A program made the position numbers and the translations under genes. The notes beneath the pieces are model-generated. The model was not told the origin of the DNA. It was given only the letters and a program-made list of their open reading frames with translations, and ran no database searches. A stretch of 56,662 nucleotides of DNA from the NCBI RefSeq assembly GCF_030409335.1, contig NZ_JAUFPN010000198.1, positions 1 through 56,662 on the forward strand, in the 5' to 3' direction. Position 1 is the stretch's first letter. Every line of letters begins with the position of its first letter. The stretch comes from Paeniroseomonas aquatica (GTDB taxonomy: Bacteria; Pseudomonadota; Alphaproteobacteria; Acetobacterales; Acetobacteraceae). Positions 9,097-15,307 of the stretch are shown here, piece by piece.

Positions 9097-10143
9097 TCAG
9101 CCGGCGAAGCGGATGCGGCAGAGGGTGCCGGCGGCGGGGCGGCGGCTTTCCATCTCGAAGCTGCCGCCAAGCTGGGCGGCCAGCGCCTTGACGATCCGCA
9201 GCCCCAGGCTGCGGGTCCGCGCCAGGTCGAAATCGGGCGCCAGCCCGTGGCCGTCGTCGGCGATGGTCAGGCCGATCCGCCCCGCCGCCTCCCGCCGCAG
9301 CGCCACCGCGATGGTGCCGGGCGCGGCGGCGCCCCCGGCGGCGGTCCCGGCGGTGGTCCCGGCTTGGGGGAAGCCATGCTCCAGCGCATTGGCGATCAGC
9401 TCGGCGACGATGAGGGCGAGCGGCACGCTCTGGTCCGGGTTCAGCGCCAGCGGCTCGGCGTCGACGGTGCAGCGCACCGCGCCGGCCGCGTCCATCGAGC
9501 CCAGCACGTCGTCGCAGAGTTCGCGCAGGAAGGCGCCGAAATCCACCAGCTGGCCCCGCGGGTCGTGCAGCTTGCGGTGCAGCCGGCCGATGAGGCCGAG
9601 CCGCGCCGCCGCCTCCTCGATCACTCGCCGCGCCTGGGCGTCCTGCACCGTCGCCTTCTGCAGGGTCATCAGCGCGCCGACCACCTGCAGGTTGTTGGCG
9701 ACCCGGTGCTGCAATTCGTGGAACATCATGGCGCTGGTCGCGGCGAGCGACTGGCTGCGCTCGCGCTCCTGGCGGAGCTGGTCGAGCGCCAGGGTCATGC
9801 CGTGGATGATGGCGATGTCGACCGTGACGATGCCGGCGTAGAAGCCGAGCGCCAGCAGGTCGGCCGCCTGCGGCGTGCCGGCGGCGGCGCTCGGCAGCAG
9901 CAGCAGCCAGGCCGCCAGGCCGCAGCCGGCGGCCACCGCCACCGCCGGCCAGAGCCCGCCGAGGAAGGCGGTGAGGATCACCGCGGGGAAGAAGGTCAGG
10001 AAGGGGAAGCCGGGCGGCAGCGCCGGCTCGAGGGCCAGCCGCGCCGCCACCGCCACCGCCAGGCAGGCCAGGGCGATGGTCCAGCGCTGCGCCGCCGGGC
10101 GCCGCGCCGCCCCGAGGCGGGCGACCAGGGCGACCAGGGTCAT
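9097..10143 (-). CDS. Membrane-bound sensor histidine kinase, DUF4118 plus HisKA_2/HWE type
   Basis: 348 residues. The N-terminal 120 residues contain about four membrane helices, including FLTFFPAVILTAFLGGLWPAV typical of DUF4118/KdpD-like sensor modules. A dimerisation domain with FHELQHRVANNLQVV follows (likely phospho-acceptor His146), then an HATPase with N-box ELIANALEHGFP and G-boxes ADDGHGL and LGLRIVKALAAQLGG. HisKA_2 kinases are common in alphaproteobacterial light and general-stress signalling. No response regulator is adjacent, so the partner is encoded elsewhere. Confidence 0.85.
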   Translation of the reverse strand: MTLVALVARLGAARRPAAQRWTIALACLAVAVAARLALEPALPPGFPFLTFFPAVILTAFLGGLWPAVAVAAGCGLAAWLLLLPSAAAGTPQAADLLALGFYAGIVTVDIAIIHGMTLALDQLRQERERSQSLAATSAMMFHELQHRVANNLQVVGALMTLQKATVQDAQARRVIEEAAARLGLIGRLHRKLHDPRGQLVDFGAFLRELCDDVLGSMDAAGAVRCTVDAEPLALNPDQSVPLALIVAELIANALEHGFPQAGTTAGTAAGGAAAPGTIAVALRREAAGRIGLTIADDGHGLAPDFDLARTRSLGLRIVKALAAQLGGSFEMESRRPAAGTLCRIRFAG

Positions 10144-10277: not shown

Positions 10278-11249
10278 TCAATCGGCGCTGATGCCGGCCT
10301 CCCGCACCAGGGTCGCCATGGAAGCCCGCTCCCGGCGGAGGAAGTCGGCGAATTCGGCCGGGCCGCTGCCGAGGCCGATGGCGCCGAGCGCGGCCAGCCG
10401 CTGCACCACCAGCGGCTCGGCCAGGGCGGCGCGGCAGGCGGCCTGCACCCGCTCGACGATCGCCGGCGGCAGGCCGGCCGGGCCATAGACCCCGTTCCAC
10501 TCGTTCTGGTCGTAGCCGGGGAAGCCCTGCTCGGCGACCGTCGGCACCTCCGGCAGGCCGGGGATCCGCTGGGCGGAGGAGGCGGCCAGCGCGCGCACCC
10601 GGCCGTCCTGCGCCAGCGCCGCGGCGGAGGCGACGGTGGCGAAGCCGAAGTCGACGTCCCCCGCCAGCACCGCGGCCAGCGCCGGGCCGCCGCCGCGATA
10701 GGGCACGTGGCTCAGCTCCACCTTGGCCCTGCTGGCCAGCAGCGCCGCGGCGATGTGGTTCGAGACGGCGTTGCCGGAGGAGCTGTAGGTCACCTGGCCC
10801 GGCGCCGCCCGCGCCCTGTCCAGCAGCTGCGCCAGGCTGCGGAAGGGGCTGTCCGGGCGGACGACGGCGATCAGCGGATAGAGGGTGACCCGGCTGATCG
10901 GGGTGAAGCCGCGCTCGTAGTCGAAGCCGAGGTTGCGGAAGATGAAGGGGGCGACCGCCTGGTTGGCCGCGTCGACCAGCAGGGTGGTGCCGTCCGGCGC
11001 GGCGCGGGCCACCTCGGCGGCGCCGATGGTGCCGCCGGCGCCGGCCCGGTTCTCCACCACCGCGGGCTGGCCGAGGACGGCGCCGAAGGTCGGGGCGAAG
11101 AGCCGCGCCGTGGTATCCGCCCCGCCGCCGGGGGAGAAGGGCACCACCAGCCGGACCTGCCGCGGCGGCACCCATTGCGCCGCGGCGGGGCGGGCAAGCA
11201 GGCCGGCGCCGAGAGCCAGGGCGGCGCGCCGCCCGAATTGATCGTCCAT
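10278..11249 (-). CDS. Bug/TctC-family periplasmic solute-binding protein
   Basis: 323 residues. The N-terminus FGRRAALALGAGLLARPAAAQ looks like a Tat-compatible signal peptide. Family blocks VRLVVPFSPGGGADTTARL and VVENRAGAGGTIGAAEVARA follow immediately, and the HVPYRGGGPALAAVLAGDVDFGF region is typical of the ligand-cleft hinge. The ATG has GGGGAG about seven bases upstream. It lies 66 bp downstream of an alpha/beta hydrolase on the same strand and could be co-transcribed, suggesting uptake of an ester or aromatic acid that the hydrolase handles; that link is inference. No TctAB subunits are nearby. Confidence 0.9.
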   Translation of the reverse strand: MDDQFGRRAALALGAGLLARPAAAQWVPPRQVRLVVPFSPGGGADTTARLFAPTFGAVLGQPAVVENRAGAGGTIGAAEVARAAPDGTTLLVDAANQAVAPFIFRNLGFDYERGFTPISRVTLYPLIAVVRPDSPFRSLAQLLDRARAAPGQVTYSSSGNAVSNHIAAALLASRAKVELSHVPYRGGGPALAAVLAGDVDFGFATVASAAALAQDGRVRALAASSAQRIPGLPEVPTVAEQGFPGYDQNEWNGVYGPAGLPPAIVERVQAACRAALAEPLVVQRLAALGAIGLGSGPAEFADFLRRERASMATLVREAGISAD

Positions 11250-12282: not shown

Positions 12283-13347
12283 CTACCGCTCGCGGTTGGT
12301 GAAGCGGGCATTGCCCAGGCCGGTGCCGATGGTCAGCACCCCCCAGCGGGAGACGTCGCCCATCCAGGGCACCTGGCTCAGCCCCTGCACCACCGCGTCG
12401 TTGTGCACGACGATGATGGTGGCATGGCCGCCGATCTCCGGCAGCGCCTCCAGCAGCCGCCCCGGCAGGTTGAAGCGGCTGCTCTCCCAATTGCCCGGCA
12501 GGTTCTGGCCGCCCTTGGCGATGCTGCCGTCCGGCTCGATCTGCCCGGGGCAGCCGACGCCGATGAAGGGCGCGACGGCCAGCCCGCGCTTCTCCGCCTT
12601 GCGCAGCAGGTCGGCCAGCATCTCGCAGAGCCGGTCGATCGCCTCCTCGCGCTTCGGCTTGTCGTCGCGGTGGTGCCAGATCTCGGTCTCCCAGAGGCAG
12701 GCGGCGGAGAGGTCCGGCGCCTTCTTCAGGTGCGGCCGCACCAGCCCGACCCGGATGTTCGAGCCGCCGATGTCGACCGCGAGCAGCGCGTCATGGCCGA
12801 GGAAGATCCAGGGCGGCGCGAGCTGCACCGCGCCGATCAGCCCGGCCTCGTCCGGGTCATGGCGGATCGGCAGCAGCTCGGTGGCGATGTCCTCGCCCCG
12901 CAGCAGCATGCCGGCGCGGCCGATCGCCAGCTCGCCGACCCGGCTGCCGCGCATGCCGCCGCCGATGACGATGCGCTCGGTCTCCTGCCAGCCCTTGGTC
13001 TTCAGCAGGCGCTTGATGACGGTGGCGAGGCCTTGGGCGAATTCCTCGACCACCCCATGCACCAGCCCGGCGATCTCGGCGTCGCCCTGGGCCAGCAGCT
13101 TGTCGAGCTGGCGGCGGCTGATCTCGGCGGTCGGGGTGGTGCCGAAGGGGTCGTCGTCAACCTTCTTCAGGGTCTTCCGCCAGGTATCGAGGATCTCGCG
13201 GAAGGCGCCGCTGCTGGCCTGGTCGCCGAGGAAGCCCTCCGGCGTCCGCAGCTCCGCGTTCAGCGCGTCGAGCGTCACCGCGGGCAGCGCCTTCGCGCCA
13301 TGCGCGGGGAAGCCGGGGGGGTTGGGCCGTTCGACCTGAACCGTCAT
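12283..13347 (-). CDS. ROK-family (ASKHA) sugar-kinase-like protein with apparently permuted domain order
   Basis: 354 residues in one unbroken frame. Residues 44-177 match the C-terminal half of ROK kinases: a helical stretch EEFAQGLATVIKRLLK, then RIVIGGG at 125-131 and DEAGLIGAVQLA at 166-177. Residues 189-347 match the N-terminal half: LAVDIGGSNIRVGLV (phosphate 1 loop, 189-203), GVGCPGQIEPDG, NLPGNW, HNDA with the presumed catalytic Asp at 317, and TIGTGLGNA (339-347). Canonical ROK proteins have these halves in the opposite order. The ROK zinc motif (CxCGxxGCxE) is absent. The ATG at 13347 is the only sensible start. Catalysis on a sugar is inferred, not shown. Confidence 0.8.
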   Translation of the reverse strand: MTVQVERPNPPGFPAHGAKALPAVTLDALNAELRTPEGFLGDQASSGAFREILDTWRKTLKKVDDDPFGTTPTAEISRRQLDKLLAQGDAEIAGLVHGVVEEFAQGLATVIKRLLKTKGWQETERIVIGGGMRGSRVGELAIGRAGMLLRGEDIATELLPIRHDPDEAGLIGAVQLAPPWIFLGHDALLAVDIGGSNIRVGLVRPHLKKAPDLSAACLWETEIWHHRDDKPKREEAIDRLCEMLADLLRKAEKRGLAVAPFIGVGCPGQIEPDGSIAKGGQNLPGNWESSRFNLPGRLLEALPEIGGHATIIVVHNDAVVQGLSQVPWMGDVSRWGVLTIGTGLGNARFTNRER

Positions 13348-13435
13348 GGGCACTGCTGTTCCGGATGGGAGCGAGGCCAACGCGCGGTGCGCGGCATTGT
13401 TTCGGCCGGGGCCGCCAGCCGGGCCGCTAGCCGGG

Positions 13436-13972
13436 TCAGGCCGCGGGGTAGCGGATCGCCACCACCTCGAGGCTCTCCGTCCCCTGCGGCATCCGCACCC
13501 GCACCAGGTCGCCGACGCCCGCCCCGAGCAGGGCGCGGGCCACTGGCGAGACCCAGGAGATCCGCCCGGCGCCGCTGTCGGCCTCATCCACGCCGACGAT
13601 GGTGACGGTCACCTCCCGGTCGTCCTCCCGCGCATAGGTCACCGTCGCGCCGAAGAAGATCGCGTGGCGCCGGGTCTGCCGGGCGGGGTCGACCACCTGC
13701 ACCCGTTCGAGCCGCTTCCGGAGGAAGCGGACCCGGCGGTCGATCTCGCGCAGCCGGCGCTTGCCGTACTGGTAGTCGGCATTCTCCGAGCGGTCGCCGA
13801 GCCCGGCCGCCCAGGCGACCAGCTCGACCACCTTCGGCCGCTCCTCGGACCAGAGCCGGCGCAGCTCGGCCAGCAGCGCCGCATGGCCGGCCGGGGTCAT
13901 GTAGAAGGGGGTGCCGGACGGCAGGCCGGGCGGGCCGGCCTCCTCGTCGTCGTCATCCTCGGCACGGCTCAT
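13436..13972 (-). CDS. greB: GreA/GreB-family transcription elongation factor
   Basis: 178 residues. An acidic N-terminus (RAEDDDDEEAG) precedes the coiled-coil with GDRSENADYQYGKRRLREIDRR at about 59-80; this is the conserved acidic tip and helix that enters the RNA polymerase secondary channel and stimulates transcript cleavage. The C-terminal FKBP-like domain includes ISWVSPVARALLGAGVGD. KRRLREIDRRVRFLRKRLE is GreB-like rather than GreA-like. The start codon overlaps the stop of the upstream Bug receptor gene as ATGA, so translation is probably coupled. An accessory Gre-type paralogue is possible. Confidence 0.88.
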   Translation of the reverse strand: MSRAEDDDDEEAGPPGLPSGTPFYMTPAGHAALLAELRRLWSEERPKVVELVAWAAGLGDRSENADYQYGKRRLREIDRRVRFLRKRLERVQVVDPARQTRRHAIFFGATVTYAREDDREVTVTIVGVDEADSGAGRISWVSPVARALLGAGVGDLVRVRMPQGTESLEVVAIRYPAA

Positions 13973-14937
13973 TCGATGGTGATGGCGGCATCCGCCACCA
14001 GCCGGCCGAGCCTCTCCCGCTGCGCCACAAGGTAGCTCGCCGCCTCCTCCGGCGGGCTGCCGACCGCGGTGGCGCCGATCGCGGCGAAGCGGTCCCGCAC
14101 GGCGGGCTGGGCCAGCGCGTGGCGCACCGCCGCATGCAGCCGCGCCAGCACCGCCGCCGGGGTCCCGGCCGGGGCGGCGAGCAGGTTCCACTCATCCAGC
14201 ACCACCGCGGGATAGCCGGCCTCGGCCATGGTCGGCACCGCCGGCAGCGCGGCGACCCGCTGCTCCGAGGCGACGGCCAGCGCCTTCAGCCCCCCGTCGC
14301 GGATCAGCTGGGTCGCCGAATTCACCGTGGCGAAGGCGAAGACCACGGTGCCGGAGATCAGGTCCGGCAGCACCGCGGAGCCGCCGCGATAGGGGACGTG
14401 GCCGATGTCGAGCCCGGTTTCCCGCAGGAACAGGGTGGCCCCGAGATGCGACCCGCCGGCATTGCCGGAGGAGCCGAAGGCCAGCCGCCCCGGCCGCGCC
14501 CGCGCCCAGTCGACGAACTCCGCCAGGGTCGCGACCGGCAGCGCCGGCGGCACCACGAAGATCTGCGGCAGCACCGTCAGCAGGCTGACCGGGGCGAAGG
14601 CGGTCGCGTAGTCGAAGCGCAGGCCGTGCAGCAGCTGCGGATTCACCGCATGGTTCAGCGCATCGATCAGCAGGGTATGGCCATCCGCCGGGCTGTCCGC
14701 CACCGCCCCGGCGCCGAGCGAGCCGGCGGCGCCGGGGCGGTTCTCGACCAGCACGGTCTGGCCAAGGAAGGCGCCCATGGCCGGGGCCAGGACCCGCGCG
14801 GTGGTATCGGTGCCGCCGCCCGGGGTGAAGGGGGCGATGATGCGCACCGGCCGGCCGGGGGCGGGCTGGGCCCGGGCCGGGCGCGCGGCGAGGCCGGCCG
14901 GCGCGGCAAGCGCGGCCCGGCGGGTGATGGCTGGCAT
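13969..14937 (-). CDS. Bug/TctC-family periplasmic solute-binding protein
   Basis: 322 residues. A twin-Arg-like signal peptide (AITRRAALAAPAGLAARPARAQ) is followed by VRIIAPFTPGGGTDTTARVLAP and VLVENRPGAAGSLGAGAVAD, both diagnostic of the family, and later HVPYRGGSAVLPDLISG. The gene resembles the receptor at 10278-11249 in its block sequences, suggesting local paralogy. It ends in an ATGA overlap with the GreB-type gene. The orphan ParD-like gene lies 73 bp upstream on the same strand. No membrane subunits are present. Confidence 0.9.
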   Translation of the reverse strand: MPAITRRAALAAPAGLAARPARAQPAPGRPVRIIAPFTPGGGTDTTARVLAPAMGAFLGQTVLVENRPGAAGSLGAGAVADSPADGHTLLIDALNHAVNPQLLHGLRFDYATAFAPVSLLTVLPQIFVVPPALPVATLAEFVDWARARPGRLAFGSSGNAGGSHLGATLFLRETGLDIGHVPYRGGSAVLPDLISGTVVFAFATVNSATQLIRDGGLKALAVASEQRVAALPAVPTMAEAGYPAVVLDEWNLLAAPAGTPAAVLARLHAAVRHALAQPAVRDRFAAIGATAVGSPPEEAASYLVAQRERLGRLVADAAITIE

Positions 14938-15010
14938 GGCGGTCTCCTCGGGGGGAGGCTGCGGGCGGCCCCGGTTGCGGTCAAGCCGCGCCGGCGGATG
15001 GGCGCCGGCC

Positions 15011-15307
15011 TTAGTCCGAGCGTTCCTTGGCGGTCTCGGGGACCCAGACCGCCTGCTGCCGGCGCACGGCGGAGACCAGCTGGTCCTCCGGCACCTCCCA
15101 GCCACGGTTGGGCTGCAGCGCGCCGAGCACCGGCACGACCTGCGACTTCACCCAGCGGGCCAACGCCTCCTCCCGCGCCTGGAACGCGGCGAGGGCGGCC
15201 AGGACCACTGCATTGCCCGATTCATAGGCGCCGGAGGCCACCAGATCGTCGATGTAGCGCGCCTGGTCCGGCGGCAGGGCGACGCTTCGCTTTACGGCTT
15301 GCGGCAC
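15011..15307 (-). CDS. ParD-like ribbon-helix-helix antitoxin, apparently without a toxin partner
   Basis: 98 residues from a GTG start at 15307, chosen because GGGGAG lies nine bases upstream and the ParD-type segment KRSVALPPDQARYIDDLVAS begins right after it. An N-terminal RHH DNA-binding strand-helix-helix (residues about 6-45) is followed by a longer helical tail (AREEALARWVKSQVVPVLG) that in ParD proteins wraps the ParE toxin. No ParE-like gene overlaps or follows; the next gene on the strand is a Bug receptor. It may be a solitary regulator. A TAGCCT element at 15330-15335 (minus) is a possible -10. Confidence 0.7.
   Translation of the reverse strand: MPQAVKRSVALPPDQARYIDDLVASGAYESGNAVVLAALAAFQAREEALARWVKSQVVPVLGALQPNRGWEVPEDQLVSAVRRQQAVWVPETAKERSD

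Follow-up and report, generated by a model that had tools for sequence, protein, structure and literature searches.

The ROK sugar kinases (PF00480), represented by the Streptomyces griseus glucokinase 3vgk, the E. faecalis glucokinase 2qm1 and the human ManNAc kinase 2yhy, are the closest described relatives of the protein reported here, with which they share both halves of their fold, the phosphate-1 DIGG motif, the ND pair, the phosphate-2 GTGxG loop, the GGG adenosine motif and the terminal D..GxxGA helix. We take these motifs to serve phosphate, adenosine and sugar binding and catalysis, with the Asp of the ND pair (D317 in our protein) presumably being the catalytic residue; CxCGxxGC is the zinc-binding motif of the family. 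Unlike these kinases, the protein encoded in the window, as we call the whole 56,662-nucleotide stretch of Paeniroseomonas aquatica DNA that was analyzed, has its two halves swapped, lacks the zinc cysteines and appears to leave the Glu and His of the ROK ExGH motif unmatched, and its family has a conserved linker and new termini. Changes of topology are known within the ASKHA fold, FtsA and other ASKHA proteins having a rearranged subdomain; in FtsA-type proteins a subdomain was moved, whereas the present protein has its entire two-lobed chain rotated. ADP-dependent glucokinase and ribokinase are likewise sugar kinases related by a permuted topology, but their ribokinase fold is a different one. 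It is unusual for an entire two-lobed enzyme to be circularly permuted in nature, and we know of no described circularly permuted ASKHA sugar kinase. The original prediction knew of no described permuted ROK enzyme either, and none was found, by title, among open-licence PMC papers that link circular permutation to ROK, ASKHA or hexokinase; the passages of PMC1079889 on the subject speak of permuted kinase folds in general, with no mention of ROK proteins.

Results

The gene lies at 12283..13347 on the minus strand, the strand of all window coordinates given below. It is open throughout, encodes 354 amino acids and ends with a stop codon at 12283-12285, so that the single uninterrupted frame of the original prediction was recovered, with each of the motifs quoted there at its residue. 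In the chain the former C-terminal half of a ROK kinase comes first, followed by a short conserved linker and the former N-terminal half, and the new ends fall at the ExGH loop just before the zinc motif. Residues 1-183 (12799..13347) are the counterpart of the ROK C-terminal half. Residues 1-15 are devoid of invariant columns in a 51-member family alignment (residues 1-10 being of low confidence in the AlphaFold2 model), and H16-G17 (13297..13302), invariant in 51/51 members, form the new N-terminal edge at the position of the ROK ExGH sugar loop. This half also carries RIVIGGG (residues 125-131, 12955..12975), with the adenosine-motif glycines G129-G131 invariant in all 51 members, and DEAGLIGAVQLA (residues 166-177, 12817..12852), the final helix of the ROK fold. 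The linker between the two former termini spans residues 177-187 (12787..12819), where P178 and D186 are invariant and W180 is kept in 50 of the 51 members. Residues 184-354 (12286..12798) correspond to the ROK N-terminal half and hold the phosphate-1 motif DIGGSN (192-197, 12757..12774), HND (315-317, 12397..12405), whose D317 is aligned to the Asp of the ROK ND motif, and the phosphate-2 glycine loop GTGLGNA (341-347, 12307..12327). As had been predicted, the protein ends right after this loop, only 7 residues following it, and the chain stops where ROK enzymes have their ExGH sugar loop, immediately ahead of the zinc motif. Since the same genome encodes one ordinary ROK protein and one ordinary glucokinase, the permuted protein is an additional one.

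Single-sequence searches related the protein to ROK kinases in pieces. No Pfam family scored above its cut-off for the window protein in native order; against PF00480 (gathering score, 22.9 bits) the whole protein was not listed, its C-part reached 13.9 bits, and rotating the sequence still did not bring PF00480 up. Some relatives exceeded that cut-off through one half only, L028 scoring 43.4 bits and L024 reaching 32.2 bits, with their strongest stretch lying within the profile's N-half, and 39 of the 51 family members matched PF00480 at E<=0.1. Among NCBIfam models, the window protein gave a weak match to beta-glucoside kinase (E 1.7e-4; residues 85-174 to 204-282 of 291, towards the C-terminal end of the model), and a profile search of solved-structure sequences retrieved only two ManNAc kinase sequences (E ~9e-4), via the N-half. 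Using phmmer against solved structures, 4htl was aligned twice in swapped order (254-353 to 58-144 and 84-174 to 203-286), a lead only at a whole-chain E of 0.052. The relative L028 matched the NCBIfam ROK glucokinase model TIGR00744 over 179-338 to 1-138 in native order and, once rotated, in one stretch over 6-340 to 1-310 of 318. Matches of single relatives thus lengthened upon rotation, with scores barely altered, and a clear permutation signal appears, from these comparisons, to require family profiles rather than single sequences.

Such a signal was obtained when the 51-member family alignment (44 sequences kept by the filter of hhalign) was compared with 31 ordinary ROK proteins. In native order, residues 189-351 matched ROK columns 1-138 (score 47.9) and residues 74-178 matched columns 195-292 (score 34.2), the two matches standing in reversed order. 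Rotating the family at residue 184 merged them into a single match of 279 columns spanning ROK 1-292 of 294. In a scan of 17 start points, the six from 150 to 189 lifted the score to 61.3, and starts 180, 184, 186 and 189 gave one 279-column alignment reaching ROK 292 of 294; start 200 scored 49.6 and the remaining ten 34.4-47.9. In contrast, 60 column shuffles of the whole profile scored 26.0 at most, and when the N-part was shuffled 100 times the maximum was 23.7, the unshuffled N-part scoring 34.6. Shuffling only the N-part of the rotated profile (60 runs; maximum 57.3, mean 48.5) was a less decisive control. The swapped order stands well above chance. The original prediction had aligned residues ~44-100 with what follows the zinc motif, which was approximate only: the zinc-motif region, minus the cysteines, was matched by residues ~38-49, and ROK 195-292 by residues 74-178.

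AlphaFold2 predicted one confident fold for the window protein (pLDDT 89.6, pTM 0.88), an ASKHA fold in line with the kinase-like permutant first proposed. When the two halves were searched separately for structural matches, model residues 186-352 superposed on residues 2-142 of the ROK glucokinase 3vgk and the N-part, modelled alone, on 143-306; the same complementarity was seen with 3r8e (0-145 and 146-294). ROK-like lobes were thus found as two complementary pieces of one ROK fold. The three lowest Foldseek E-values belonged to chains of human hexokinase 1 and 2, of ~900 residues with two fused kinase units, which, in our reading of these E-values and chain lengths, is what a permutant would give. 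Structures of ROK repressors were also among the fold matches.

Mapping on conserved ROK positions placed D192, G194 and G195 (DIGG), the PG pair (267-268), ND (316-317), the glycines and threonine of GTGLG (341-345), GGG (129-131), D166 and G172; D166 was kept in 50/51 members and all others in 51/51, the DIGG, ND, GTGxG and GGG motifs being invariant throughout. The ATP-site motifs and the Asp of the ND pair are therefore kept, and the zinc cysteines are gone: the ROK cysteines (Cys 170, 172 and 177) had no Cys partner in the permuted family, of which C266 is the sole invariant Cys. The Glu of the ExGH sugar loop fell on a gap and its His on an Ala, in an alignment that is uncertain beside the new N-terminus, and H16 may stand in for the ExGH His. 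This pattern suggests that the ATP site works and that the acceptor pocket is altered.

When one genome per species was scanned, 559 pattern matches emerged, 546 of them encoding a relative. The best 80 of the 546, from Acetobacteraceae, Bradyrhizobium and others, were 57-86% identical over near full length, and in the loci fetched for them the N-part preceded the C-part in one frame in 80/80 cases. Homologues with the same order therefore exist, and with 546 related stretches and the order kept at all 80 loci a sequencing or assembly join is excluded. No head-to-tail duplicated intermediate was present among the 82 frames with a match in these 80 loci, 80 being N-part then C-part and two N-part only. 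Frames with family N-part sequence only (L049:768-1097 and L022:2142-2432) are possible remnants of a duplicated gene. Relatives were also found in 206 plasmid records, chiefly from Rhizobium (111) and Sinorhizobium (79); among the 40 plasmid records listed, those that annotate the gene give 'ROK family protein' and, in one case, 'glucokinase'.

Whole-genome surveys at E<=0.001 found a match in 23/299 genomes of the phylum (16 strong, >=302 bits; 7 weak), 17/385 of the class (one weak) and 23/200 of the window's own family. With the C-part profile 50/398 genomes matched, 22 strongly (>=218 bits) and 28 weakly (<=28 bits). Several weak C-part matches (e.g. G025:C3, G044:C1 and G048:C61) were rejected as family members, being full-length ordinary ROK genes. 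No close linear ROK protein emerged with this profile, the weakest family member scoring 218 bits versus 28 for the best weak match. From these counts and this gap in scores, the gene is accessory, patchy and set widely apart from linear ROK proteins. The family is a discrete one with a fixed permuted order; it occurs patchily among Alphaproteobacteria and also beyond that class. Two diverged copies of the permuted gene occurred in two genomes of the family survey (G421 and G506) and two of the phylum survey (G200 and G217).

The upstream co-directional neighbour in the window encodes a GreA/GreB-type elongation factor (13439..13972), which is not part of the protein and was also present at two other loci (L002 and L010). 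Receptor proteins of TctC-type tripartite tricarboxylate transporters flank the gene (10278-11249 and 13969-15105), and a HisKA_2/HATPase histidine kinase, of a class that commonly relays general-stress signals to PhyR, is encoded ~2 kb downstream (9097-10143). Elsewhere the neighbour was the trehalose-phosphatase otsB in a Rhizobium record (another annotation there being 'haloacid dehalogenase'), an osmoprotectant NAGGN-system peptidase in an S. meliloti record, and ferritin-like and PRC-barrel genes on a Bradyrhizobium plasmid. The neighbours differ by lineage; some fit a stress setting and none names a substrate.

A putative EcfG-type general-stress promoter, GAAAC-N16-CGTT, was found upstream of the window gene (13379..13403, read from 13403 to 13379), ending 31 bases before the ATG. 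Published EcfG promoters read GGAAC-N16-CGTT in Rhizobium etli, and the two commonest -35 elements in Sphingopyxis are GGAAC and GCAAC (PMC3892343, PMC7083833 and PMC4167512). The window -35, GAAAC, is one base off both forms. GNAAC-N16/17-CGTT preceded 48 of 81 genes (the window and 80 loci, whose members are related, Bradyrhizobium above all, and not independent), versus 9 of the 592 remaining gene starts of these loci and 13/4050 mononucleotide shuffles; for the stricter G[GC]AAC-N16/17-CGTT the counts were 32/81 (genes again related, not independent), 8/592 and 6/4050. GGAAC-N16/17-CGTT was present at 5/5 plasmid loci examined (three genera, two loci being the same S. meliloti locus), and the loci of the genome surveys matched the EcfG-type motif in 3/15 cases only. 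The window genome encodes a NepR over its cut-off, in a stretch (L167:1-3072) where two neighbouring sigma-factor-like frames were recognised by eye and from which the EcfG-type motif as written is absent. These motif counts make stress regulation quite probable for many members. A search of open-licence PMC papers for a link between EcfG or general stress and the ROK family led to a passage that names a different ROK gene. Searches there with presumed S. meliloti locus tags led at most to another regulon, so that no tie between the S. meliloti gene and published regulon lists emerged.

Discussion

The best explanation for the protein is a ROK-type sugar kinase of ASKHA fold that has undergone circular permutation in nature and is often stress-induced; as a whole we consider this explanation likely. 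Its core, namely that a known enzyme fold has truly been permuted and that the permutation is conserved, we regard as very likely, since swapped profile matches, a predicted fold with complementary ROK matches and the order kept in 80/80 loci agree. Two unrelated domains, a decayed fusion or an assembly artefact could account for the whole model covering only its C-terminal half on ROK kinases in the top rows of sequential structure alignment, and for the Pfam ROK matches shown in detail covering that same half; the N-part, however, matches the ROK C-half by profile and fold, the model is one confident fold, and dN/dS was 0.16-0.56 across both halves in four comparisons, values compressed by 96% GC at third positions. 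Rotation with its shuffled controls, the N-part fold match and the conserved loci together lead us to regard this explanation as refuted, its probability being next to nil.

Kinase activity itself we judge to be somewhat probable from the conserved motifs. The same permuted fold might instead have lost it and act as an ATP- or sugar-binding regulator or sensor, as the non-catalytic ROK repressors do, which would fit the repressor structures among the fold matches and the lack of counterparts to the ROK zinc cysteines and to the Glu and His of ExGH. We hold this to be unlikely, since the ND pair and all phosphate motifs, unneeded in a sensor, are invariant in 51/51 members, Pfam places no DNA-binding domain in the window protein, and the fold is preceded by only ~15 residues, among which no column is invariant. 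Use of polyphosphate instead of or besides ATP, as by a permuted polyphosphate-dependent glucokinase, overlaps with our preferred explanation, so the odds of the two are not exclusive, and it appears quite improbable. The NCBIfam PolPhglucPhase model was, in native order, the best for L030 (E 8.9e-6) and second best for L028 (2.7e-6), but L024 scored higher with the beta-glucoside kinase and ROK glucokinase models, and all scores were far below the curated cut-offs. Assignment to a ROK subfamily thus failed, the preferred model differing between members and these mixed, sub-cut-off scores singling out none. The polyphosphate glucokinases (NF045942), linear in order unlike the permuted protein, match its N-half motifs about as well as do other ROK subfamilies, with no specific affinity apparent.

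Most likely, then, the protein would be an ATP-dependent kinase that carries no zinc, is often induced by stress and acts on a sugar or a sugar-like compound. Its two lobes would form the usual cleft, in which DIGG, GTGxG and GGG bind Mg-ATP and D317 activates a hydroxyl of the acceptor. Without zinc and the ExGH loop the pocket would be more open, and a substrate other than plain glucose may therefore be used. Sigma-EcfG would probably switch on transcription of many members during general stress, and a role in phosphorylating a sugar freed in stress, desiccation or osmoprotection, the weakest step of this proposal, can be envisaged. A bolder version, a zinc-independent permuted ROK branch in the alphaproteobacterial general stress response with a pocket opened by the new chain ends and a substrate that no linear ROK protein uses, is conceivable but doubtful.

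The plain label 'ROK family protein' hides the permutation in what are probably hundreds of genes, those of rhizobial symbionts among them, and would lead homology models and inferences about the active site astray. The stress-promoter motif offers a direct entry point for experiments. Because the chain is cut at the ROK active-site loop for sugar and zinc, the family amounts to nature's own test of whether that loop is necessary.
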